Part shown: positions 2,899-49,453 of the stretch, one piece after another
How positions within the stretch are numbered: the stretch's first letter is position 1
How the letters are laid out: every line of letters begins with the position of its first letter
DNA from: Polystyrenella longa
GTDB taxonomy: Bacteria > Planctomycetota > Planctomycetia > Planctomycetales > Planctomycetaceae
Direction: 5' to 3'
DNA length: 64,000 nt
NCBI RefSeq assembly: GCF_007750395.1
Contig: NZ_CP036281.1
Coordinates: 1-64,000 of the forward strand
Notes under the pieces: generated by a model
What the model saw: the letters and a program-made list of their open reading frames with translations, nothing else
Database searches by the model: none
Told to the model about the DNA's origin: nothing
Program-made: the position numbers and the translations under genes

Positions 2899-5741
<2,843 letters not shown>

Positions 5742-5790
5742 CGATAAGAATCTTAGGTTAACAAAAACCATTGCGAGCAGCGCATCGTAA

Positions 5791-5823
5791 CGCCAGTCGA
5801 ATCACTCGACTGGCGTTTTTTTT
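5791..5823 (+). terminator. Intrinsic terminator after gyrB
   Basis: A perfect 10-bp stem (CGCCAGTCGA at 5791-5800 with TCGACTGGCG at 5806-5815), a 5-base loop and eight Ts at 5816-5823. It lies 50 bp past the gyrB stop and should end the dnaN-dciA-gyrB transcript. Confidence 0.95.
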
Positions 5824-37154: not shown

Positions 37155-37213
37155 TGCGGAAGTATCCGCAGAAAGAGATTGACGAACAAACATAAAGTGC
37201 GGTACAGTCCGCA
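37155..37213 (+). promoter_or_regulatory. blaI promoter with two TGCGG-N6-CCGCA operators
   Basis: Two 16-bp palindromes: TGCGGAAGTATCCGCA at 37155-37170 and TGCGGTACAGTCCGCA at 37198-37213, centres 43 bp apart (about four turns). A promoter is readable between: TTGACG at 37179-37184, 18-bp spacer, TACAGT at 37203-37208, so operator 2 covers the -10 box. The BlaI-type repressor gene begins at 37245 with GGGAG at 37232-37236. This is the layout expected for autorepression. Operator 1 may also control ppk2 on the other strand. Confidence 0.8.
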
Positions 37214-37244: not shown

Positions 37245-37622
37245 ATGCCTGAATTCACCAAAGGAGAGCTGGAGGTCATGCAGATCCTCTGGAAACATGG
37301 TGAGATGAAGCCTGCGGAAATCGAAGAGCACTTTCCGTGGGAGATCACAAACTCTTCGCTCCGTTCGTACCTTTCGATTTTGTTGGACAAGGGGCATCTT
37401 ACCCGGCATCGACGGGGTAAAGCATTCTTCTACCGGGCGAAAACGAAGCAAGCTTCCACCTTTCGGCAGATGCTGAGCGAACTGACTCGCACCTGCTGCG
37501 ATGGCTCGGTTGAGAAACTGCTTTGCCATCTGATCCGCTCTGAAAAGTTGTCGGAAGAAGATTTGCTTGAACTGAAACGCATCGCGGAAACAGACAATTC
37601 CGATCCGGATCCTAAAGCTTAA
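37245..37622 (+). CDS. BlaI/MecI/CopY-family repressor
   Basis: A 125-residue winged-helix repressor of the BlaI/MecI family, normally inactivated by cleavage by the partner BlaR1/MecR1-type protease. Seen: FTKGELEVMQILWKHGEMKPAEIEEH, then the recognition part SLRSYLSILLDKGHLTRHRRGKAFFYRA and a C-terminal dimerisation helix region with a Cys pair (TCCDG). The gene is 11 bp ahead of the M56 protease gene and is probably co-transcribed. Two matching palindromes lie upstream. Target genes are unknown; this pair is far larger than a beta-lactamase system and no beta-lactamase is nearby. Confidence 0.92.
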   Translation: MPEFTKGELEVMQILWKHGEMKPAEIEEHFPWEITNSSLRSYLSILLDKGHLTRHRRGKAFFYRAKTKQASTFRQMLSELTRTCCDGSVEKLLCHLIRSEKLSEEDLLELKRIAETDNSDPDPKA

Positions 37623-37633
37623 GGGACGCCCTC

Positions 37634-40600
37634 ATGAGTCTGATCGACTGGTACTCTCAAACGGTAATGCTAGACAGTGAAACCGAATTCTGGCTGGTAC
37701 TGCTGAGTAAAGTTACCCTGTTGTTGGCGGCAGCCTGGTTGTTGCGATTATTGGTGAGTAAAGCGAACCCCCGCTATGCCGTCTTCGTCTGGCGTTCGCT
37801 AGCGGCGAGTCTCTGCTTGCTACTTCTCTGGAGCTTCTCGTTTCCCTCGGTCAAGATCCCCTTACCGGTGCTCAGTTCCCAGGAACCGGAAATCATAATC
37901 GAAGAGATTCCTCCAGTCGTTCCCATGGCTGAGGAAAACATAACCTCGATTACCTTCGACCGGGCGCCCGTTCCGTTTCAAAAACCATTTCAAGAGATCG
38001 AAGCAACAGAAGACCGTGACCTCTCAACTCGAATCGTGAACACAATCGAGCCAGAAGAAAATGCGGAACCTCCTTCCTTTGCTCCCATTGTGGAGCCAAC
38101 GATTGAAGATGCCGCGTCGATTTCCATCGGCAGTCTCCTCTGGTCAATTTGGATGATGGTCACTGGACTGTTGATACTTCGGTTATCACTGGGGCTTTAT
38201 CGATTAAGAATTCTCGTGCGGGCCTCGTCAGTTGCTCCGTCAGAAATCAGGAGTGAAGTAGATCGGCTACGAGAGAAGTTAGGTGTTCGTTCCCCTATTG
38301 ATGTTCGTCTTTCGACGGAGGTATCGATTCCCCTGCTGACAGGAATTGTTCGCTCCGTGGTCCTGCTACCCGCCGATCTGAACCAGCCCGAGAATGCCAG
38401 CCACCTACCCGCGATTTTAGCTCATGAACTTTCGCATGCTCGTTCTTATGACGTCTTGTGGAGTCGTCTGGTTCATCTGATTCAGATTCTATTCTGGTTT
38501 CATCCGCTCGCCTGGAAGATTGGCGACGTGCACCAACATGACTGTGAGCGTGTTTGCGACGCCGTGGCGACCGACTGCATTAATGACGTCACTGCCTACA
38601 GCCGTACCTTGGCAACCATTGCTCTTCGTGCCACCTCCCGTCCTCTGCTCGGCACGGTCAGCATGGCCCGCACCTGCGAAGTCCGTCAACGCATCGCGAA
38701 ACTCCAACAAAAAGTCTTCGCCCACTCCCTTCCTTTACTGGCCGTCTGCGCCATGAGCACCGTTGCCCTGGTCACCGCCGTTCTGTTAACGGGAGGTGAA
38801 CTGACGGAAGCAGCGATGGAGGTTGAAGAGGCACCTAAGGTAGTTGAGAATGAAGAACCAAAGGATACCGTCAGTCAGATTAAAGTTGTTGACGAACAAG
38901 GAGAAGTGGTTCCCGAAGGAGTGGTATCGATCACCGGACGTGCAAAGAGTGGGAAGTACGTAAAAGAGGACCACCCAATCGTAAACGGAGTGGCGCAGTT
39001 TGATCTCGGCGAAGAATTGTTCAACGATTTTAAAATCAAGGTTCAAAGCAAGGGTTATCAAACGCTGACCATGAACCGAGGGGACCTCGCTGGTCGCGAC
39101 GCTTATCAGGTTGAGTCCGAGTATGTTCTGGACCTTCAACCGGCGATCACAATTGGAGGGCAGGCGGTTGACGAAGAGGGCCAACCGCTTTCCAACGTAC
39201 TCATTCGCTGTGGAGTTTCACTGCGTTATCGTGGCGAAGAGAAGCGGACTTACGATAACCCGGAAGGTTGGGTGCTCACCAATGAGAAGGGACACTGGGA
39301 AGCCCACGATCTGCCGCCTGATTTAAAGGGGCTGAGACTTGGCGTGGGACATTTCACGCACGAATATCTACCGGCAGCAGAGGATCAGTATCGGATATAC
39401 ACTGTTCCTGAAGAGAAATACGACTTATTCCGCCAACAAAAATTCGAACTGACTATGACTGAAGCGATTCCTCTTACGGGAGTCGTGAAATCAACTGAAG
39501 GAGAACCAATTGAGGGAGTGCTGGTCGATATCTCAGGACGCACCGGTAACTGGGAGCGAATTCTTGCAAAGGGTCAGAAATTCAAAACAAATGAGAAAGG
39601 GGAGTTTTCGCTTCCGAACCCGACTAGGGGTTCACAATATATGTCGTTTGAACATCCCAATTGGCAACCGCGTCAAATTCATTTGAACATTCCGCGTCGC
39701 GAGCCTCTGGAGGTACAGCTGAAATCTGGTCGCCAGGTCGAGTTCCAGATAGTCAATCCGGAAGGCGAGCCGCTTGAGGGGGTGAATTTCTTCGTGGGAG
39801 GTCAAACCTATAAAACGAATGCCGAAGGGAAGTGGATTTGGACGAATGCGCCGGCAGGTATTCTACAACCACAAATCAGCTTGGATGGTTATCTTTCTCC
39901 CAATTACCGTCCCGGTTGGGATACATCTGGTGAACCGATCGTGATCATGCTCGAAAGAAGTATTCCAGTTCATATGAATGTTCTTGATGCCGAATCGGGC
40001 ACGCCAATAGAGAAATTCGAACTATTTCTTGGCATGCACATTAAAGCGAACTCACCAGGGAGCTGGGAGTGGCACCCCCATTACCTCTTCTTGAAGAACA
40101 AAGATCGAGAGCCTCTTCTCTCGGGAGAATTTTTCTCAGAGATAAGAAGCCGTATTTCGCTCTACCAGTACCGGGTCGATGCGGAGGGTTATCTTCCCAC
40201 GTTGTCTGAGATCGTCGATCCCGAAGAGATGATCGGTCGAGAAATCAACTGGACACTGAAGCTCGAAAAGAACAAGTCATTAATAAGACAGGTATTCACT
40301 CCAACGGGAACCCCTGCGGCGAATGCTGATATTATCATTCGCTTTCTGGGGTCAGATGATCTAAATGGAGTCATCAGAGTTTCTCAGAGTGAGATGCCAG
40401 ATTTAGAAGTCAAAAGCTCACAGGATGAACTCCATTTGAAAGCAGATGCAGAAGGAAAAGTAACCATTCCGGAAACTGATGAACCCTACTTCTGTCTGGT
40501 TCGACATGATACGGGGTATTTGCCTGTCTACATCGACGTAGATTTGATTCATCAGCGAGAATTGAATTTACGACCGTGGAAACCCATTAAAGGAAAGGTA

Positions 40601-42901
40601 TTATTGTCTGGAAAGCCTGCTGAGGATCTCTATGTTCGAACGACGAAGACCTTGGATCGCTCGGCCGAAGAGGGGCGATTCATGGGGGGAGCTTCAGGGT
40701 CCCAAGTTCGATTTTTGCATGAGCTGTCAACCGACGAGGAGGGGGCATTTTCGGTGCCCAAAATGCCGGAAGGGAAGACGCTATTCAAGATCAGTTCAGG
40801 GCTGCCGGCAGAGGGAGATATCAACGGAGTTGAACGAAAAAAGACACCACCCACATGGTCGCTTAATGTGGTTTATGACCCTGACGATCCGAGGCACAAT
40901 CCGTTTGTTCTGGGAGACGATGAAGTCGACATTCGCGGTCAGGCTCTACTTCCTCCAGGAATGAATTTGTCTGTGACCAATAGTTATGTCCGTATAAATC
41001 GAATACGAAACGACGATGAGCCCGAATATTTATTTTATCACAATGCGAAAGCTCTTCTGGACTCTAAGGGGACGTTTCAATTGCGAAACCTTTCCCCAGG
41101 TACCTATGTGGGTTCTCTGAAAATCGTGCGGGAGGAAGATGTCCAAGAGGGTGTCACACGCAGGTCGAGTCATTATGCCAAGTTTAATATTACCCCTGAC
41201 ATGTTCACCGGCCACGGCCCGGGGAACCCGATTGATCTGGGTGAAATTGAGTTAACCGAGAATAACAAACAAGCGATTAAGGAAACTTCCGAGACGATTG
41301 AAACGGAAACAAAACCTGTTGTGGAAGATGAGAAATCCAATCCACAGAAATCGAAATCGAAGAATGTGGTGGAGTATCGCGTTCAGGATGAACTGGGAAT
41401 CCCGATTGAAGGAGTCTCGTTTCGTTATGGCCCGTTGATCGCCGGTAAAACCAATGAAAAAGGGGTGATGCAGGTAGAACGCTCGAAGGGGTTGCGATAT
41501 GAGGTGGAGAAAAAAGGATATCACTCCGTACATCTCCGGAAGCAACATGAACTTAATGACTCACCCGTTGCTGTGATGTTACTGCGAGCAAGAGCTGTCG
41601 TGGGTAACGTCTACGACGCTGAGACGGAAAAGCCAATCGAAAAATTTCGGCTGGCTCGAGGGGTTCAAACTGTAGATAATGAGAACACCAAATGGGATTG
41701 GAATTATCGTCAGCATTTTTCAACGAGTGACGACCCGCCCGGCTTTTTCTCTGATAAGTTGACCGACGTGCATTCACCAGTTCAGTATTTAATTGAAGCG
41801 GATGGTTATCTTCCCCAGCGATCGGCGATATTGGAACACGACAAGCTAGAGACCCTCCCACATCATCTGGAATTTAAACTTCGTCCCAAGCGAGACTTGG
41901 TCTGGAAGATCTACACACCCGACGGAGAACCGGCCGACGGTGCCGAATTCACTCTAAAGAACAATTTGGACCGGCGTCATGAATTCGTCTTCATTGAAAA
42001 TGGCAAGCCGATAGAAGACGAGTCAAGTCATCCTACGCTCTCGGTCGTCGCTGACGCACAGGGGAAGTTCGAAGTTCCCGAATCACCCGGTCGATTCCTG
42101 TGTGTGATCACGCACGAGACCGGTTTCCTGCAGTTGACCGATATTGAGTTTTATGAGCAACAGGAGTTACGGCTAAAACCCTGGAGGAATATCAACGGTA
42201 AGGTTCTGGTCGAAGGTAAGCCTGTTTCTGGCGTGAAGATCAGTACAAACTACACTTATTCGAGAAGATCAGGACTAATGATTCTGGGGGGAGACATACC
42301 AAATGTCTTATACCGCCAATTTACAGAAACAGATGAGAATGGCGATTATGAATTGCCGGCCGGTCCTTATTACCGCTGTCGTTTGGAAGTGGAAAAGGTG
42401 TCGGAATCTTCATCAGAAGAAAATTCGACTCAAAGAGGAATCTTTCTTCAAAGGGTTGTACCGGAGTGGTCCGCCTATTATGAAATTGAATCTAAGGATC
42501 GCGAGACTGTAATATTTAATATTGGCGATGACGAAGTGGATCTGGTTGGTAAGGTTTCCTTTCCGGAAAACATGCATGTCGATCTGGATCACTCGATCGT
42601 CTCTTTGACGCGTGAGAAATCGGAAATGTCGTTCCATCCCTACTTCAGAGGATCCTTTCAGGCTCGCTTGGCAGCGGATGGATCATTTCGTTGTCACAAT
42701 TTAACACCGGGAGAATACATTGGTGCTGTATTTGTAGGTGACATTAACGAGAAAGAATTTAGTAGTCCGCTCCCCATCTTATCAATCAGAGTCAAAAAAA
42801 CACTGACGGGGAAATTCACAATCACCCCCGACATGTTCAACGGCCACGGCCCGGATAAACCGATTGATCTGGGGGAGATTGAGTTAACTCCGGTGAAGTG
42901 A
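37634..42901 (+). CDS. Giant BlaR1-type M56 peptidase with carboxypeptidase-regulatory-like tail
   Basis: A 1755-residue sensor-protease. The N-terminal 390 residues have the M56 layout: helices near 18-41, 48-70 and 163-190, zinc site HELSH at 264-268 with the downstream CERVCDAVATD (304-314, third ligand region), and a fourth helix near 366-386. After it lies about 1360 residues without more helices, presumably outside the cytoplasm: CarboxypepD_reg/Ig-like units (VSITGRAKSGK, VDEEGQPLSNVLIRC, EGEPLEGVNFFVGG). The tail contains a tandem duplication: LNLRPWKPIKGKV near 976 matches LRLKPWRNINGKV near 1511, and ITPDMFTGHGPGNPIDLGEI near 1185 matches a copy near 1731. BlaR1 is about 600 residues, so the extracellular part is the novelty. 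It likely senses a ligand and triggers cleavage of the BlaI-type repressor. Confidence 0.88.
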   Translation: MSLIDWYSQTVMLDSETEFWLVLLSKVTLLLAAAWLLRLLVSKANPRYAVFVWRSLAASLCLLLLWSFSFPSVKIPLPVLSSQEPEIIIEEIPPVVPMAEENITSITFDRAPVPFQKPFQEIEATEDRDLSTRIVNTIEPEENAEPPSFAPIVEPTIEDAASISIGSLLWSIWMMVTGLLILRLSLGLYRLRILVRASSVAPSEIRSEVDRLREKLGVRSPIDVRLSTEVSIPLLTGIVRSVVLLPADLNQPENASHLPAILAHELSHARSYDVLWSRLVHLIQILFWFHPLAWKIGDVHQHDCERVCDAVATDCINDVTAYSRTLATIALRATSRPLLGTVSMARTCEVRQRIAKLQQKVFAHSLPLLAVCAMSTVALVTAVLLTGGELTEAAMEVEEAPKVVENEEPKDTVSQIKVVDEQGEVVPEGVVSITGRAKSGKYVKEDHPIVNGVAQFDLGEELFNDFKIKVQSKGYQTLTMNRGDLAGRDAYQVESEYVLDLQPAITIGGQAVDEEGQPLSNVLIRCGVSLRYRGEEKRTYDNPEGWVLTNEKGHWEAHDLPPDLKGLRLGVGHFTHEYLPAAEDQYRIYTVPEEKYDLFRQQKFELTMTEAIPLTGVVKSTEGEPIEGVLVDISGRTGNWERILAKGQKFKTNEKGEFSLPNPTRGSQYMSFEHPNWQPRQIHLNIPRREPLEVQLKSGRQVEFQIVNPEGEPLEGVNFFVGGQTYKTNAEGKWIWTNAPAGILQPQISLDGYLSPNYRPGWDTSGEPIVIMLERSIPVHMNVLDAESGTPIEKFELFLGMHIKANSPGSWEWHPHYLFLKNKDREPLLSGEFFSEIRSRISLYQYRVDAEGYLPTLSEIVDPEEMIGREINWTLKLEKNKSLIRQVFTPTGTPAANADIIIRFLGSDDLNGVIRVSQSEMPDLEVKSSQDELHLKADAEGKVTIPETDEPYFCLVRHDTGYLPVYIDVDLIHQRELNLRPWKPIKGKVLLSGKPAEDLYVRTTKTLDRSAEEGRFMGGASGSQVRFLHELSTDEEGAFSVPKMPEGKTLFKISSGLPAEGDINGVERKKTPPTWSLNVVYDPDDPRHNPFVLGDDEVDIRGQALLPPGMNLSVTNSYVRINRIRNDDEPEYLFYHNAKALLDSKGTFQLRNLSPGTYVGSLKIVREEDVQEGVTRRSSHYAKFNITPDMFTGHGPGNPIDLGEIELTENNKQAIKETSETIETETKPVVEDEKSNPQKSKSKNVVEYRVQDELGIPIEGVSFRYGPLIAGKTNEKGVMQVERSKGLRYEVEKKGYHSVHLRKQHELNDSPVAVMLLRARAVVGNVYDAETEKPIEKFRLARGVQTVDNENTKWDWNYRQHFSTSDDPPGFFSDKLTDVHSPVQYLIEADGYLPQRSAILEHDKLETLPHHLEFKLRPKRDLVWKIYTPDGEPADGAEFTLKNNLDRRHEFVFIENGKPIEDESSHPTLSVVADAQGKFEVPESPGRFLCVITHETGFLQLTDIEFYEQQELRLKPWRNINGKVLVEGKPVSGVKISTNYTYSRRSGLMILGGDIPNVLYRQFTETDENGDYELPAGPYYRCRLEVEKVSESSSEENSTQRGIFLQRVVPEWSAYYEIESKDRETVIFNIGDDEVDLVGKVSFPENMHVDLDHSIVSLTREKSEMSFHPYFRGSFQARLAADGSFRCHNLTPGEYIGAVFVGDINEKEFSSPLPILSIRVKKTLTGKFTITPDMFNGHGPDKPIDLGEIELTPVK

Positions 42902-43278
42902 GGGAGTCAATCTGAACGTGGGCAATCGTGTGTCGTTCAGGAAATTTCCGGTGGGCCGGTTTCCTGATCTGGTGAGATAGATTTCCGTGACAACCGATTG
43001 GGACTGCCTAAGAAATAAGTTCGGTGACTCATTAAATAGGGAATGTGAATTCGGACTTACTTTCCCAAAATGGTGACATAAGACATCTTGACGTTTTGAT
43101 TAGGCACCGGTCTAATTTTCAGTTGCTTAGCTTTAATGCACACGCTTCGGAACAAACCGGATTAATTGCGACCTCGTTCGTTTCATTACTGTGAACCAAG
43201 AGGCTGTTAACAAACTGAATGCCCGGTGTTCTGTTCAACACGCCATTCGACTCACCATCTGTTTGGAACGCTCCCACT
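42902..43278. other. Intergenic region upstream of the FG-GAP pair
   Basis: 377 bp after the M56 gene, holding the promoter of the first FG-GAP gene. I see no strong terminator, repeat or small gene. The FG-GAP frame extends back to an ATG at 43219, but that leader lacks family features. Confidence 0.35.
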
Positions 43279-46236
43279 ATGCTTTTCATCACGCGGCTTA
43301 CCTCGCTTCTGCGCGCTCATCGTTCACAATCTCGCCAGCAATTCTCGCGGCGTTCTGGTTCTACCCCGGACTGTAGCCAGATTGATCAACTGGAAGTCCG
43401 CACGTTACTCTCTGGAATTGTGGCCTCGGTTGATACGGGATCGGGACATTTTCATGCAGTAGGTCCCGGATATGGTGAAGAAAACAGTCACGCGATTGGA
43501 CTGGGTGACCTGGACGGTGATGGCGACTTGGATGCGGTGATCGTCAAGTACGATTCGGACAGTTCGATCATGTGGAACGATGGCAGCGGTAATTTTACGG
43601 AAAGCCTGCAATCCCTTCCTGAAAGTACGAATGTCGCTCTGGCCGATGTCGATGGAGACCTCGATCTTGATATTTATCTTTCCCGTTCGAATCTATTTAA
43701 CGACGGTCCTGATGACCAGCTTTGGATCAATGATGGGAATGGACAGTTTTCAAAGAGTGATCAAGTGCTCTCGAATGGGGAAAGTGGTGCGGGCGTTTTT
43801 GGTGACCTCAATGGCGATGGACACGTCGATCTCTTTCTCAACGACCGCAGTACGGGCAGCAATGTCTGGTTAAATGATGGAAGCGGGAACTTCACTAACA
43901 CCCTTCAGTCGCTCAGGGATCCCGGATTGACCGGTGGTCAGCTCCATATCGATACAGCCTTGGGTGACGTCGATGATGATGGTGACCTGGATGCGTTCGT
44001 GGTGTCGTTCGGGCAACCCAACCTGCTGTTTCTGAACGATGGAACAGGCCAATTCTCCTTTGCCCAGTCTTTTGACTTCGGGAATAACCGGACCGCCGAC
44101 GTTGAACTAGGTGACATTGATGGAGACGATGATCTGGATGCGGTTGTTGCCAGTCGCGAGAGTGGTAGCCTGATCTATCTGAACGAGGGAGGGACCTTCG
44201 CTTTAATTCCAGCGACGATTGGTGACCGAGATACCTACGCAGTTGGTCTGGGCGATTTCGATAGTGATGGTGACCTTGATCTGTACCAGGCCAACTCCTT
44301 CGACGGGACTCCCGTGACTCCTCCCCCCAGGTATGTCGGTGATCGGGTTTTTCTGAACGATGGCGCGGGCAACTTTACCATGACTCCCCAGTCGCTTGGA
44401 CCGGCCTATGGAACCGATGTTGCCTTGGGCGATCTCGACGACGATGGTGATCTTGATGCATTCGTTACGAACTGGATTTATGATGCTGATCAGGTCTGGT
44501 TTAATGGAAATGAAAGCCTCCCTTTCAAACAAGATTTTGAATCGGGTGATACAGATGGTTTGATCGTCAGTAATCCAGCAAATGTGAGCGTTATCGGCCC
44601 CCTTGGGCAGCAGGTAATGCAGTTCGATAACGTGGGACTGACCGGCCTCACGACCGCGCTGGTTACTCTTGACGGACCTCTTCCGAGTCTGTTCGAGATG
44701 TCAGCGAAAGTTCGTTCCGTCTCTGGAGCGGATCGTTGGAACAATGGTTTCCTGATCTTTGATTATCAGAACGAAAATGATTTTAAATACGCCGGTATAT
44801 TCACTGGGCAGAATGAACTGGTTATCGGACACTATCAGGGAAGCTGGCAAAATCGAATTGCCCAACTCGACTGGGATGATGAGGGTCGCGTTCTCAGAAC
44901 CGACCGTAACCATCAATTACATGCGTCAATCAATGGAAATGCCGTCACCTTGTCGGTTGAAGGTCTGCCTGTTTTGAATGGAACTTTCCCGCTCGGCATC
45001 GGTGATGGTTCGGCGGGCGTCGCTTCGTATCATGCGTTAACGCAGTTTGATGATTTCGAAATTGCAAACGAAGTCGCTGTGGGAAAATCGGTCCCCTTCC
45101 CCTACATGGATAATTTCAATGATGGCAAGACGGATCATTTCTACTTTAATAACTCTGATGTCTGGAAAACCGTCAGTGCGACGGGGGGGCAGAACGTGCT
45201 GCGTGCGAACACATCGTACACCCCATTGAAATCGGTGGCTTACGTACCTGTTTCAGATTTACCAGAGACCTTTGATATCTCGGTAAAGGCTAAGTCGATC
45301 TACACCGGTGAGGGCTGGCAGAATGGATTTATCATCTTCGACTATAAAAGCGAAAATGATTTCAAATACGCTGGCATGTTCACAGGGCAGAACGAATGGG
45401 TGATTGGACATTACGAAGGTCACTGGGGGAATCGTCTCGCTGAGGTCGATATGGATGATATCGGGCTGAGAATTCACTCAGGTCGGTACTACAACTTACG
45501 GGTTCGTCTCGATGGCCCCCATGTATCGCTATTTGTCGGAAATGAATTGGTCACATCGGCGACATTTGCTTCCGACGTTAATCATGGTCCGGTTGGACTC
45601 GCCGTCGAAAAAGCCTTCACTTGGTTTGATGACTTCGAGATCAACGTGCCCCCTGTCTTGCACGACAGCATATTTGAAGATTTCAATGATCAAGTCGTCG
45701 ACGAACTGACGACTCCTGACAGCAGCCAGGGGAGTTTTCGAGATCTTAATCGAGATGGTTCTGACTTCTCTTATCTCGTACAGGCCAACGTCTCTCGGGG
45801 ACTGGAGCTTCAACTGACCAATCCCCTGCAGGTGCTATCCCCCAGCTACACGCTCAATGTAAAAACCAGAATGGACAGTGACATGAATGCGTGGCAGGAC
45901 GCGTTTCTCATCTTCGATTATCAGAACGAGAAAGACTTTAAATATGCCGGTGCCTTCGCGGGCCAGAACGAGTGGGTGGTCGGCCATTACCAGGGGGACT
46001 GGGGAACCCGATTGATTGTCGACCTCGATGATGTTGGTGAAACAATCGATGTAGGCACGTTTTACGATCTGGAATTGAGGGTCTATGGAGACGCAGTCAC
46101 TTTCTTAGTTGATAGTTCGGAACTGATTTCTACGACCTTTGGAGAATCCGTCTACGGCGGCCAGGCAGGTTTCGGAGCATTTAGGGCATTGACGGAATTC
46201 GACGACTTCGGGTACTCACCGAATGTGCCCGTGTAA
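43279..46236 (+). CDS. LEPR-XLL-like surface protein with FG-GAP/VCBS repeats, paralog 1
   Basis: A 985-residue exported protein. The N-terminus is basic and Ser/Arg-rich and has QLEVRTLLSG, matching the LEPR-XLL-type motif seen at the N-terminus of large planctomycete surface proteins. Next come about seven FG-GAP/VCBS calcium-type repeats (LGDLDGDGDLDAVI, LADVDGDLDLD, LGDVDDDGDLDAFV and others, to about residue 400). The C-terminal 550 residues are three repeats of about 193 residues, each around FDYQNENDFKYAG...QNEWVIGHYQG...DWDD (near 494, 687 and 879), resembling DUF1080-like jelly rolls. It is probably a cell-surface or secreted adhesive/binding protein. Start chosen by analogy with the next paralog. 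Confidence 0.82.
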   Translation: MLFITRLTSLLRAHRSQSRQQFSRRSGSTPDCSQIDQLEVRTLLSGIVASVDTGSGHFHAVGPGYGEENSHAIGLGDLDGDGDLDAVIVKYDSDSSIMWNDGSGNFTESLQSLPESTNVALADVDGDLDLDIYLSRSNLFNDGPDDQLWINDGNGQFSKSDQVLSNGESGAGVFGDLNGDGHVDLFLNDRSTGSNVWLNDGSGNFTNTLQSLRDPGLTGGQLHIDTALGDVDDDGDLDAFVVSFGQPNLLFLNDGTGQFSFAQSFDFGNNRTADVELGDIDGDDDLDAVVASRESGSLIYLNEGGTFALIPATIGDRDTYAVGLGDFDSDGDLDLYQANSFDGTPVTPPPRYVGDRVFLNDGAGNFTMTPQSLGPAYGTDVALGDLDDDGDLDAFVTNWIYDADQVWFNGNESLPFKQDFESGDTDGLIVSNPANVSVIGPLGQQVMQFDNVGLTGLTTALVTLDGPLPSLFEMSAKVRSVSGADRWNNGFLIFDYQNENDFKYAGIFTGQNELVIGHYQGSWQNRIAQLDWDDEGRVLRTDRNHQLHASINGNAVTLSVEGLPVLNGTFPLGIGDGSAGVASYHALTQFDDFEIANEVAVGKSVPFPYMDNFNDGKTDHFYFNNSDVWKTVSATGGQNVLRANTSYTPLKSVAYVPVSDLPETFDISVKAKSIYTGEGWQNGFIIFDYKSENDFKYAGMFTGQNEWVIGHYEGHWGNRLAEVDMDDIGLRIHSGRYYNLRVRLDGPHVSLFVGNELVTSATFASDVNHGPVGLAVEKAFTWFDDFEINVPPVLHDSIFEDFNDQVVDELTTPDSSQGSFRDLNRDGSDFSYLVQANVSRGLELQLTNPLQVLSPSYTLNVKTRMDSDMNAWQDAFLIFDYQNEKDFKYAGAFAGQNEWVVGHYQGDWGTRLIVDLDDVGETIDVGTFYDLELRVYGDAVTFLVDSSELISTTFGESVYGGQAGFGAFRALTEFDDFGYSPNVPV

Positions 46237-46474
46237 GTATCCAGTGTAACTGTAACTTCATCTTGATTAATAATGATTTGATTAAATGAGTAATCTTAGA
46301 CGCCCGCGACCGACGGTCATCTCTCGCTGGTCAGCTTGACTCAATTATCACTGGCGAATTGTATTGAAGACCTACTTTCGTGAGGTCCGGATCGAAGAAT
46401 AGCAGGCAGAACTGATGTGGACGTTCATGTGTTCGCGAACATCCCCATTTTCTTTCACTACAGGATTAATTCTC

Positions 46475-49453
46475 ATGATCAACTTCAACTGGCTGGCCTC
46501 CTGTTTCGGATCGAACGAATCCTTTCAAAATCAGAGTTCTTTACGCCGAAAAACTGCTCGAAACTTAAACAGTTCTACATTGGAATTTCTGGAAGCCAGA
46601 ATTCTTCTTACAGCGAGTCCGTTAAATCAACTTATTGATAGTGGCCAGGAGTTAGGCGACAGTTATGCCTGGAAAGTTGACTTGGGCGATGTTGATAGCG
46701 ATGGTGACTTGGATGCGTTTCAGACAAATAATATCGGAGATAGCGAACTCTGGATCAATGATGGCTCTGGAAATTTCATCATAAGTACGCAGGTATTTGA
46801 TTCCGGGTTTGTAGGCAAGTTTGGTGATATTGATAGTGATGGTGATCTCGATCTGATTAAAACCGGATTTGATCCCGATCAGGAAACGGTGTGGTTTAAC
46901 GATGGCTCTGGAAACTTTACCAAGAGTGGTCAATCCTTAAAGCCTCCTAAGTACTTCAGCAATGACCTTGTCTTGGGAGATGTTGATGGCGATGGGGACC
47001 TGGATGCACTCATCGGTCAGTTTGAAGGGTTTGGCGGTGTAAAGCGTGGTGTCCGCGTCCTGATAAATGACGGCGATGGCAATATGCTTGATGAAGGTCA
47101 GTTCGTAGGCGATTCTCCTTCAAGTGGATATTTTTATCTCGGTCTCGAAGACCTCGATGGTGATGACGATCTCGATCTTATCATAACGCGACTATATGGA
47201 CAAAATGCCGTTTTTAAAAATGATGGAACGGGTCAATTTTCCTATTGGGAGGATCTTCCCTATACAGGAGAAACCGAAGGAATTGCACTAGGAGACATTG
47301 ATAACGATGGTGACGTAGACGCAATCATTGGACGGCGCGACGACACAGAGGTGATTCTGTTCAATGATGGCACGGGCACGTTCCTCGCAAGCAGTCAAAA
47401 CCTGGGTGACCCGTACAGCACGAATGATGTAGCGTTGGGTGATTTTGATAACGATGGTGATCTTGACCTGCTTAGAGTCGTCGACGATCCCTCCTCTTTT
47501 ACTAATGTCGAGAAACTCTGGTGGAATGACGGCACCGGTTTCTTCCTGCCCAGCGGACAGGACATCAATATTGATCTCCCTCAAGCGGTAGCACTGGGAG
47601 ATTTGGATCAGGATGGTGACCTGGATGCGTTCATCGGTTCTTATCTTGATAAGCCCAGTAAAGTCTTTCTGAATTTGACAGAGCCCTATGATTACTTTCA
47701 GAATTATGAACTGAATAACAGTATGGGATTAGTTCAAAGTGATCCGGGGAATTTCACGATCGTTGATCAGGGAGACAATAAACTTCTTCAAACAGACAAC
47801 AGTGGGTTCACAGGGCTGAGCACCGCGTTGCTTGATCGCGATGACCCACTCCCGTACTCCTATGAAATGTCTTTGGAAATAACATCAGTTGCTGGTTTGA
47901 ATCGACAGAATAACGGGATGGTGATCTTCGATTATCAAGCTCCTAATGATTTCAAATACGTGGCCATGTTACCCGATCAGAATCAATGGATCATCGGTCA
48001 CTATATCGGTGGGTTCAGTAACCGGGTGGCCGAACTTGACTGGGATGATGTGGGTCGCACCATCGATAACCAGACAGAGTACCAAATGCATGTCCGTGTG
48101 GATCACCAGCAGGTATTTCTCACTGTGGATGGCGAGACCATTCTGGAAGGAGAGTTCAGCGTCCCCCTTCATCTTGGAAATGTTGGTTTCGGATCGGTCA
48201 GTGCCGTGTCCCATTTTGATGATTTCACCGTCGGCGCCATAGTGGATACCGGTGCTCCGGCGTTTCTACCGTACTTTGAAGATCTTGAAGATAGAAACGC
48301 CGATTTCTTTCAGTTCGACAAAGAAAGTTATTGGTCAGTAGTGGAGGTCGATGGAGATCACGTTATCGAAGTAGACCATCAAGATTGGAACAGGAGGTTC
48401 AGCGCGTTTGTTGATTTTACACAACCGATGCCCGATCAATACCAGATGTCAGCCGTGGTGACTTCAATCGAAGGGCCCGGACGCTGGCATGATGGATTCA
48501 TTATCTTCGATTATCAAAGCTCATCCCGCTTCAAATATGCGGGGATGTTTGCCGGCCAGAATCAGTGGGTTATTGGAAGTTCCGAATTTCTCTGGGGAAC
48601 GAAACTGGCCCAGGTCGACTGGGATGATGTCGGTCGAAGTATTGATACCAATACGGACTACAACCTTCATATCGATGTCGATGGAGATGTCGTCACATTG
48701 TCTGTTGATGGAGAAGAAATCGTCACCGCAGAATTTGCGACGGGCATTAATAACGGAAAAGTAGGTGTGGCGGCCGTGAATGCGGTCACCCATTTTGATG
48801 ACATCCGAATTGATTACGAAGTGGCAAAAGGTCTTCCTGTTGAAATCCCTTACGAGGAAAACTTTGATGACGAAGAGGCTGATGCCTTCCTCTACAACGA
48901 TTCAAAATTCTGGGATACCGTTCCCGCATCAGGAGGCCAGGTTCTGAAGGGAGATCTCTCCGACTTCAGTGGATTGGGAGTCGCCTATGTTGTGCCAGAT
49001 GAAGTGCTGCCAGAAGAATACATGGTTTCGGCAACGGTCACAGCCGAAGGAAGCCTCACTGGTTGGCGTGATGGATTCCTGATTTTCGATTACAAGAATG
49101 AATATGATTTCAAATACGCCGGCATGTTCGCAGGTCAGAACGAATGGATCATTGGACACTTTCAGGGCAGTTTTGAGAACCGACTGGCCGAAGTCGACTG
49201 GGATGATTTCAGTCGTACTATCAACCCGGATCAGGCCTATGAACTTTCCGTGAAAATCGATGGAAGTGATGTCGAATTATGGGTAGACGGTGAAAATGTC
49301 ACCTCTGCTGATTTCGGGGCCAACGTCAATGGAGGCCCCGTCGGAGTCGCAGTGATGAACGGAGTCAGCCGGTTCGATGACTTTTCAATCGGGACCAATC
49401 CGTCCGCAATCGATCTGGTCTTCGCGCAAAAAGATGCGGAACTGTTTGATTAA
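46475..49453 (+). CDS. LEPR-XLL-like surface protein with FG-GAP/VCBS repeats, paralog 2
   Basis: A 992-residue paralog of the gene 240 bp upstream, same order: N-terminal FLEARILLTA (LEPR-XLL-like), seven or so FG-GAP repeats (LGDVDSDGDLDAFQ, FGDIDSDGDLDLI, LGDFDNDGDLDLL), and three C-terminal ~193-residue repeats with FDYQxxxxFKYAxM-QNQWIIGHY-DWDDVGR cores near residues 485, 678 and 871. Asp/Asn-rich DxDxDGD loops suggest calcium binding. ATG 46475 has AGGA ahead and is better than ATG 46415. The last codons and stop lie inside the terminator hairpin of the convergent terC gene. Function: surface binding, unproven. Confidence 0.82.
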   Translation: MINFNWLASCFGSNESFQNQSSLRRKTARNLNSSTLEFLEARILLTASPLNQLIDSGQELGDSYAWKVDLGDVDSDGDLDAFQTNNIGDSELWINDGSGNFIISTQVFDSGFVGKFGDIDSDGDLDLIKTGFDPDQETVWFNDGSGNFTKSGQSLKPPKYFSNDLVLGDVDGDGDLDALIGQFEGFGGVKRGVRVLINDGDGNMLDEGQFVGDSPSSGYFYLGLEDLDGDDDLDLIITRLYGQNAVFKNDGTGQFSYWEDLPYTGETEGIALGDIDNDGDVDAIIGRRDDTEVILFNDGTGTFLASSQNLGDPYSTNDVALGDFDNDGDLDLLRVVDDPSSFTNVEKLWWNDGTGFFLPSGQDINIDLPQAVALGDLDQDGDLDAFIGSYLDKPSKVFLNLTEPYDYFQNYELNNSMGLVQSDPGNFTIVDQGDNKLLQTDNSGFTGLSTALLDRDDPLPYSYEMSLEITSVAGLNRQNNGMVIFDYQAPNDFKYVAMLPDQNQWIIGHYIGGFSNRVAELDWDDVGRTIDNQTEYQMHVRVDHQQVFLTVDGETILEGEFSVPLHLGNVGFGSVSAVSHFDDFTVGAIVDTGAPAFLPYFEDLEDRNADFFQFDKESYWSVVEVDGDHVIEVDHQDWNRRFSAFVDFTQPMPDQYQMSAVVTSIEGPGRWHDGFIIFDYQSSSRFKYAGMFAGQNQWVIGSSEFLWGTKLAQVDWDDVGRSIDTNTDYNLHIDVDGDVVTLSVDGEEIVTAEFATGINNGKVGVAAVNAVTHFDDIRIDYEVAKGLPVEIPYEENFDDEEADAFLYNDSKFWDTVPASGGQVLKGDLSDFSGLGVAYVVPDEVLPEEYMVSATVTAEGSLTGWRDGFLIFDYKNEYDFKYAGMFAGQNEWIIGHFQGSFENRLAEVDWDDFSRTINPDQAYELSVKIDGSDVELWVDGENVTSADFGANVNGGPVGVAVMNGVSRFDDFSIGTNPSAIDLVFAQKDAELFD

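Follow-up and report, generated by a model that had tools for sequence, protein, structure and literature searches.

A giant M56 peptidase paired with a BlaI-type repressor in Polystyrenella longa: a candidate transmembrane proteolytic switch with an exchangeable outer tail

We analysed 64,000 nt of Polystyrenella longa DNA (GCF_007750395.1, NZ_CP036281.1, positions 1–64,000 of the forward strand; hereafter the window), which carries the gene of a giant M56 peptidase (37634–42901, 1755 aa from ATG to stop) immediately behind the gene of a BlaI-type winged-helix repressor (37245–37622, 125 aa). All window features described below lie on the + strand. Our preferred interpretation, held with moderate confidence, is that the two genes encode a self-contained and self-regulated transmembrane proteolytic switch of the BlaR1/BlaI design, equipped with a non-antibiotic, exchangeable outer tail. 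The parts of the system, their order, the motifs, the promoter layout, a partial fold of the tail and a conflict between the tail and core trees were shown by the sequence analysis.

Protease, repressor and operator-like dyads

The window protein matched Pfam Peptidase_M56 over residues 160–356 (38111–38701) with 99.7 bits, above the curated cut-off of 31. The zinc motif HELSH (residues 264–268; 38423–38437) preceded the third-ligand motif ERVCD (residues 305–309; 38546–38560) at a spacing of 41, as do H201EXXH and E242XXXD in Staphylococcus aureus BlaR1 (PMC9834060). We compared 39 cores, comprising those of the window, of a metagenome-assembled genome (MAG) from the same genus, Planctomyces sp. 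NAT128 (G096), and of 37 others, two of which are further M56 genes of the window genome; HEXXH was present in all 39, and Glu at +41 followed by xxxD in 36. The best solved relative of the core by sequence was BlaR1 chain 8exs (E 3.4e-5). The NCBIfam model blaR1_generic scored the whole protein at 74.3 bits, far under its cut-off of 400, which placed it outside the BlaR1/MecR1 model. The M56 protease core claimed by an earlier sequence-only reading of this DNA was thus borne out, and the zinc signature, whose inactivity that reading had named as grounds for rejecting its proposal, is intact.

Hydropathy marked four hydrophobic helices at residues 19–37 (37688–37744), about 50–70 (peak 50–68; 37781–37843), 163–181 (38120–38176) and 368–386 (38735–38791), with a weaker fifth segment at 229–247 inside the protease region (1.52 vs 1.8–2.3 for the main four). 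Counts of K+R versus D+E were 3/0 in the loop between helices 1 and 2, 5/19 between helices 2 and 3, 23/17 in the protease region and 3/12 after helix 4. This charge bias fits the N-out/C-out topology of BlaR1 and, combined with homology, would place the tail outside the inner membrane rather than in the cytoplasm, the location that the earlier reading had considered fatal to its proposal.

The repressor gene ends 11 bp upstream of the M56 gene. Its product matched Penicillinase_R with 86 bits (cut-off 22.6) over nearly the whole profile (residues 5–114 against profile positions 2–113 of 115), and also matched the solved BlaI/MecI chains 1p6r and 1sd6. Copper sensing of the CopY/TcrY kind, found in the same BlaI superfamily, was considered and rejected: the TIGR02698 score (60.9 bits) was under the cut-off of 121.95, the partner is a protease, and the C-terminus lacks the C-x-C metal motif characteristic of these copper repressors.

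Two matching dyads of the form TGCGG-N6-CCGCA, 43 bp apart, were found in the repressor promoter. Dyad 1, TGCGGAAGTATCCGCA (37155–37170), lies upstream of a −35-like hexamer TTGACG (37179–37184), and dyad 2, TGCGGTACAGTCCGCA (37198–37213), encloses a −10-like hexamer TACAGT (37203–37208), which forms its central six bases and follows the −35-like hexamer after an 18-nt spacer. Such dyads in the own promoter are characteristic of the BlaI/MecI family, and we regard them as putative operators. NAT128 has TGCGGAATCGTCCGCA at the place of dyad 1 and the identical 16-mer at dyad 2, with its TGCGG half-site dyads 41 bp apart. Altogether, the pair was present in 6 of the 12 loci of the window's BlaI clade (the window and 5 of its 11 relatives) at spacings of 41–43 bp, including 42-bp pairs with TGCAG half-sites (L058, L014 and L064) and with TGTGA half-sites around N5 (L070). 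All six promoters conformed to TTGAC-N17/18-TAnnnT with the −10 inside dyad 2, the last base of the −35-like TTGAC[G/T/A/C] being variable. None of 20,000 random 220-mers of window composition contained a pair of N6 dyads with the same half-sites. The repressor partner postulated by the sequence-only reading was therefore upheld by the adjoining gene, its Penicillinase_R match and the operator-like pair in its promoter.

Outside this clade, the operator pair was not seen upstream of L043, and other BlaI clades had dyads of different sequence upstream of their BlaI genes. Repeated dyads of their own, about 25–30 bp apart, were noted at L074, L077 and L078 and at L048 and L067, the sequences being GCGAA-N4-TTCGC, present two or three times, and ACGAC-N4-GTCGT, present twice; these would allow operator-repressor co-evolution to be studied.

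In S. aureus, blaI and blaR1 likewise adjoin each other and dyads occur in the repressor promoter. The window pair resembles that system (MEROPS M56; PDB 8exp–8ext) in the spacing of 41 within the M56 core, the four hydrophobic helices, the C-terminal tail past the last helix, the adjoining BlaI-type gene and the promoter dyads. It differs as follows: the window tail has about 1365 residues and is transthyretin-like/Ig-like, whereas BlaR1 ends in a penicillin-binding sensor of about 250 residues; the loop between helices 2 and 3 has about 90 residues, compared with 41 in EL1 of BlaR1 (residues 56–96; PMC9834060); Leu replaces Phe at the position of the repressor cleavage site; the half-site is TGCGG; and no resistance gene was recognised in the pair. 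A sensor of beta-lactams or cell-wall damage like BlaR1/MecR1 would share the protease and repressor families found here. Nevertheless, no transpeptidase, penicillin-binding or class D beta-lactamase match appeared at E up to 1 in the window M56 protein or in pieces of its tail, the modelled tail is almost all beta, and the annotated neighbours, a PPK2 and two FG-GAP proteins, are not beta-lactamases. Together with the low NCBIfam BlaR1 score, these findings make an antibiotic sensor of this type extremely improbable.

The giant tail and its duplication

The tail (residues 391–1755; 38804–42898) appears to be an extracytoplasmic string of beta-sandwich domains, as suggested by a partial model, Pfam matches and the charge bias. 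We counted about 1365 residues past helix 4, in agreement with the value of about 1360 given by the sequence-only reading. Most of this length consists of two repeat copies, A (residues 697–1208; 39722–41257) and B (residues 1241–1752; 41354–42889), recognised by local alignment and BLASTP. In the local alignment of residues 396–1225 with 1226–1755, 159 of 500 aligned positions (31.8%) were identical and the score was 637, whereas 200 shuffles averaged 43 and reached 63 at most; BLASTP gave E = 9e-77 for the duplication, while self-BLASTP of the whole window protein listed the full-length self match alone. Landmarks shared by the copies include LNLRPWKPIKGKV at residue 977 and LRLKPWRNINGKV at residue 1512, 535 apart, and two ITPDMF-x-GHGP motifs at residues 1186 and 1730, 544 apart. 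The duplication proposed earlier is thus real, and its claimed size of about 540 residues corresponds to the offset between the copies (544) and not to the repeat unit, which is about 512 residues long.

Pfam detected CarboxypepD_reg/transthyretin-like domains in the tail, together with weak Ig-like and macroglobulin-like matches. One such domain, at residues 614–694 (39473–39715), scored 34.6 bits in isolation against the PF13620 cut-off of 32.3; residues ~612–699 superposed on 5aq0, the transthyretin-like domain of carboxypeptidase D (VIA-align Z 12.2, rmsd 1.8 over 77 residues) and residues ~610–700 on the SusC NTE domain 9hfj (Z 12.0). CarboxypepD_reg/transthyretin-like domains (PF13620; 5aq0) and CnaB-like pilin domains share the fold of residues 614–694, a likeness of fold that shows no function, and the window domain differs from the CarboxypepD_reg systems in being part of a long tail behind a membrane protease. 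Structure prediction, which the sequence-only reading had put forward as a check, was informative for the tail and failed for the core. The model of residues 396–1212, built on six sequences, had a mean pLDDT of 77.1 and a pTM of 0.55 and was almost all beta; the tail beyond residue 1212 is taken to be alike because copy B is homologous to the modelled copy A.

Some of the matches obtained for the tail were rejected. The best whole-chain Foldseek matches were macroglobulins and pilins, with low query-normalised TM-scores (0.06–0.17) that show just a string of beta domains and do not identify the tail with either family. A rhamnogalacturonan-lyase match had a Z of 8.4, barely over the range regarded as common. 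An exfoliative toxin, a protein of serine protease fold, was weakly matched by the single stretch of residues 1512–1580 (PDB, E 0.045) with none for copy A, and was attributed to chance.

Compared to NAT128, synonymous sites were saturated or nearly so in both tail and core (pS 0.68–0.82; 0.74 and 0.77 for copies A and B). The corresponding pN was 0.34 for residues 396–1212, 0.39 for copy A, 0.44 for copy B, 0.21 for residues 500–720, 0.37 for N-terminal residues 1–240, 0.14 for residues 243–393 and 0.09 for BlaI. This pattern indicated that the protease centre and the repressor evolve more slowly than the repeats and the N-terminal membrane part, which nevertheless look constrained. These values bear on the idea that the gene is a relict or a non-functional fusion, for which one could cite the third repeat of NAT128, which in that metagenome assembly has an overlapping frame to itself. 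Against a relict stand the long open frame, the intact active-site motifs, the promoter layout kept in NAT128 and a level of nonsynonymous change that in core as well as tail stays far under the saturated synonymous one, and we find this idea scarcely credible.

A tail-like protein of 882 aa is also encoded elsewhere in the window genome (L044, G000:C1 6072000–6082000, at 3174–5822 of that locus, − strand). Its single hydrophobic helix is N-terminal and it gave no protease match; a relative with similar neighbours occurs at L042 in G097, a genome of the same genus. The L044 protein may represent such a tail in free-standing form.

Distribution of the pairs and exchange of tails

Long-tailed M56–BlaI pairs are common in the window's family of Planctomycetota. 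In a search of 170 genomes of the family, with at most two candidates scored per genome, 139 matched the window protein at E ≤ 0.001, many of them in frames of >1000 aa among the matches listed. At the level of the phylum, 164 of 294 genomes had an M56 match at E ≤ 0.001 and 107 had one above the cut-off; the 150 M56 matches listed had a median frame length of 774 aa, with 42 in frames of ≥1000 aa and nine in frames of ≥1500 aa, and 15 of those 42 long frames came from other families. We then compared 37 loci with an M56 frame, a biased set fetched for resemblance to the window protein. The frame was ≥1000 aa in 32 of them, and a BlaI-type gene lay within −221 to +196 bp in 34; two of the remaining three run into the edge of a contig or of the fetched stretch, and the called frame of the third (L052) starts late. 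The designation as a new class of surface sensing was accordingly too strong, and the window protein represents one of several tail types built on a common chassis. The window genome itself (G000, 6.13 Mb) contained three M56 and four BlaI-type matches. The fourth BlaI-type gene (G000:C1:3782483-3782818, − strand; L111 2460-2855) has none of the genome's M56 matches beside it.

Other long-tailed pairs of the family (for example L043, L047, L056, L058, L069 and L077) have the same two-gene organisation and many carry transthyretin-like domains. Their tails otherwise differ, combining leucine-rich repeats (LRR) with a redoxin in L060 and L069, transthyretin-like domains with a redoxin in L058 and L064, and CarboxypepD_reg arrays in L056, whose tail gave no phmmer match to that of the window. 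The L060 and L069 M56 proteins, with the redoxin at the C-terminus, are kin of the window core. A search for the window tail with short peptide patterns in 84,980 species, which misses distant relatives and may omit the window genome itself, found two loci, and among the matches seen just NAT128 and the MAG Planctomycetaceae bacterium OFTM22 (G068) share the tail clade.

The number of repeat copies was one in OFTM22, two in the window and at least three in NAT128, where the third occupies a separate overlapping frame (L041 5380-5560); the frame break in this MAG is either a sequencing error or a real split. Copy A grouped with NAT128 repeat c2 (support 100/99) and copy B with c3 (93/91, not starred), which suggests that the duplication probably predates the split of the window species and NAT128. 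The sequence most identical to copy B was the OFTM22 repeat (37%), even though the tree pairs copy B with c3.

The trees of tail and core disagreed. In the tail tree, the window, NAT128 and OFTM22 formed one clade (100/100). In contrast, the 20-row core tree placed the window and NAT128 with L014, L055, L056, L058, L060, L064, L069 and L070 (100, starred) and OFTM22 on the opposite side. The core data rejected a group of window, NAT128 and OFTM22 (AU p 0.003 with 35 rows and 0.0008 with 20 rows), and the tail data rejected the window tail as a relative of the tails of L014, L058 and L064 (AU p 2e-7). The BlaI tree likewise had a 12-row clade holding the window and excluding OFTM22 (99/98), which lay adjacent with weak support (71/57), as it did beside the window clade in the 39-row core tree (63); in the core tree, the same 12 loci formed a clade (94, open) together with L071, whose fetched stretch yielded no BlaI. 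The tails of the window's core-clade mates were LRR-redoxin (L060 and L069), transthyretin-redoxin (L058 and L064) or other. The simplest reading of this conflict is an exchange of tails between cores, which a small number of loci suggests and for which the long branches of OFTM22 are the main caution.

Proposed mechanism and reach of the switch

From these parts we infer binding, signalling, cleavage and output as follows. BlaI dimers would bind both dyads and shut their own operon. The outer tail would sense a mechanical state, a ligand or a partner on the cell surface, and the signal would reach the cytoplasmic zinc site by way of helix 4 and the loop between helices 2 and 3, much as has been proposed for BlaR1 (PMC9834060). 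The protease would then inactivate BlaI, raising expression of the pair, and the chief product of induction may be additional giant surface protein. The tail would be an interchangeable part for input or display that has passed from core to core and grown longer through tandem duplication.

Such self-regulation was examined by searching for further operators. TGCGG-N6-CCGCA occurred at seven places in the window genome, two in the window promoter and five inside frames, compared to two for the reversed control. TGCRGWN4TCYGCA occurred at eight, two in the window promoter, five inside frames and one intergenic, with one forward and three reverse control matches. With one mismatch allowed, the 64-kb window contained six matches against a shuffle mean of 2.27, and 4 of 100 shuffles reached six. 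Two sites ≤50 bp apart were found at five places in six genomes, one each in G000, G096, G134, G076 and G078, and all five precede a BlaI gene; G097 had no paired sites. The two dyad patterns revealed no second paired operator in the window genome, with the proviso that they could miss degenerate operators, and no shared third gene was evident after the pair in eight related loci, whose frames were judged by eye and not aligned; the next large frame in NAT128 is on the other strand. Because neither a second paired operator nor a shared third gene was found, the main output may be the pair itself, and the M56–BlaI pair may regulate mainly itself.

A few single sites were also recorded. In the window genome, an operator-like dyad at G000:C1:1569676-1569691, flanked by a sulfatase-like frame and a divergent one, is a regulon lead; it is within chance and is not claimed as a regulon member. 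Single sites of the relatives were checked just where loci were returned, and three lie between frames (L091, L094 and L101), the one at L101 1501 (G097:C333:2685-2700) about 20 bp before a 493-aa frame.

The apparently narrow reach of the switch would also suit a different role, in which the tail would be displayed for structure or adhesion and M56–BlaI would do no more than set its level, for example according to secretion or membrane state, with no specific ligand involved. The missing second paired operator, the lack of a convincing single one and of an evident shared third gene (by eye, in the eight loci), the macroglobulins and pilins among the best whole-chain matches, for all their low TM-scores, and the tail-only paralogs with one N-terminal hydrophobic helix in the genus (L044 and L042) are all compatible with such a protein. 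The redoxin/thioredoxin or LRR tails borne by the same core clade, however, fit an input or catalytic role better than an adhesin, and the same position in BlaR1 is a sensor. We therefore judge a pure display protein unlikely, while counting it as the most serious competitor.

Several observations weigh against a sensory proteolytic switch. No ligand or carbohydrate-binding site was identified in the tail, for which sensing is suggested by position and analogy. The predicted structure of the core, with a mean pLDDT of 44.3, was too poor for topology or zinc geometry. The near-identical cores L055–L057 lack the third-ligand Glu motif, with Asp at this place in L055 and L056, and no operator pair was detected at half of the 12 clade loci (L055, L056, L057, L060, L068 and L069). 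OFTM22 has long branches in the core (3.14) and BlaI (2.53) trees, and the tool warned that long branches meet there; the 35-row AU test omitted L045, L046, L066 and L068, and the later core test used 20 of the 39 rows. The stretch separating the M56 gene from the FG-GAP gene at 43219 showed neither a terminator-like nor a promoter-like site, and the FG-GAP gene may also be under the repressor promoter via read-through. Finally, S. aureus BlaI is cut at Asn101–Phe102 and the P1′ Phe is described as almost invariant (PMC9834060); in one pairwise alignment to MecI, the corresponding bond of the window repressor is His95–Leu96.

The replaced P1′ Phe, and the fact that BlaR1 cuts itself (PMC9834060), could be taken to mean that the window protease acts chiefly on itself or on some other protein, shedding the tail for example, and that BlaI is controlled by binding or by a different protease. 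We consider this quite improbable in view of the adjacent gene arrangement kept across divergent subfamilies and of the 12 loci that form a clade in both the BlaI and core trees, consistent with a shared history. At a thermolysin-like site, Leu in the P1′ position is plausible. A self-regulated switch acting through BlaI proteolysis remains our preferred interpretation.

The annotated neighbours of the pair in the window are a PPK2 and two FG-GAP proteins. The latter, FG-GAP/laminin-G-like proteins at 43219–46236 and 46415–49453, belong to a large family in the window genome, with 49 matched stretches, many in frames of 1000–3200 aa. Rfam and tRNA scans of the 64-kb window were both empty.

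BlaR1/BlaI is, to our knowledge, familiar almost exclusively as a switch for antibiotic resistance. No description of planctomycete M56/BlaI systems was found in the open-licence PMC literature among the matches listed, PMC9834060, PMC9045261 and PMC7593790 included, which does not prove absence from print. We tentatively suggest that Planctomycetota turned the BlaR1/BlaI switch into a general surface-signalling chassis with swappable giant tails (transthyretin-like arrays, LRR-redoxin and redoxin-bearing types), wired mainly to its own promoter, such that the receptor is the induced product. The swapping of tails on this chassis is suggested by the tree conflict at few loci. With its operator layout, intact zinc signature and clear tail border, the system lends itself to tests in a simple reporter strain, and the natural tail swaps indicate cut points for working chimaeras. 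If the chassis proves general, whole sets of environmental bacteria would sense their surroundings by direct repressor proteolysis with exchangeable inputs.

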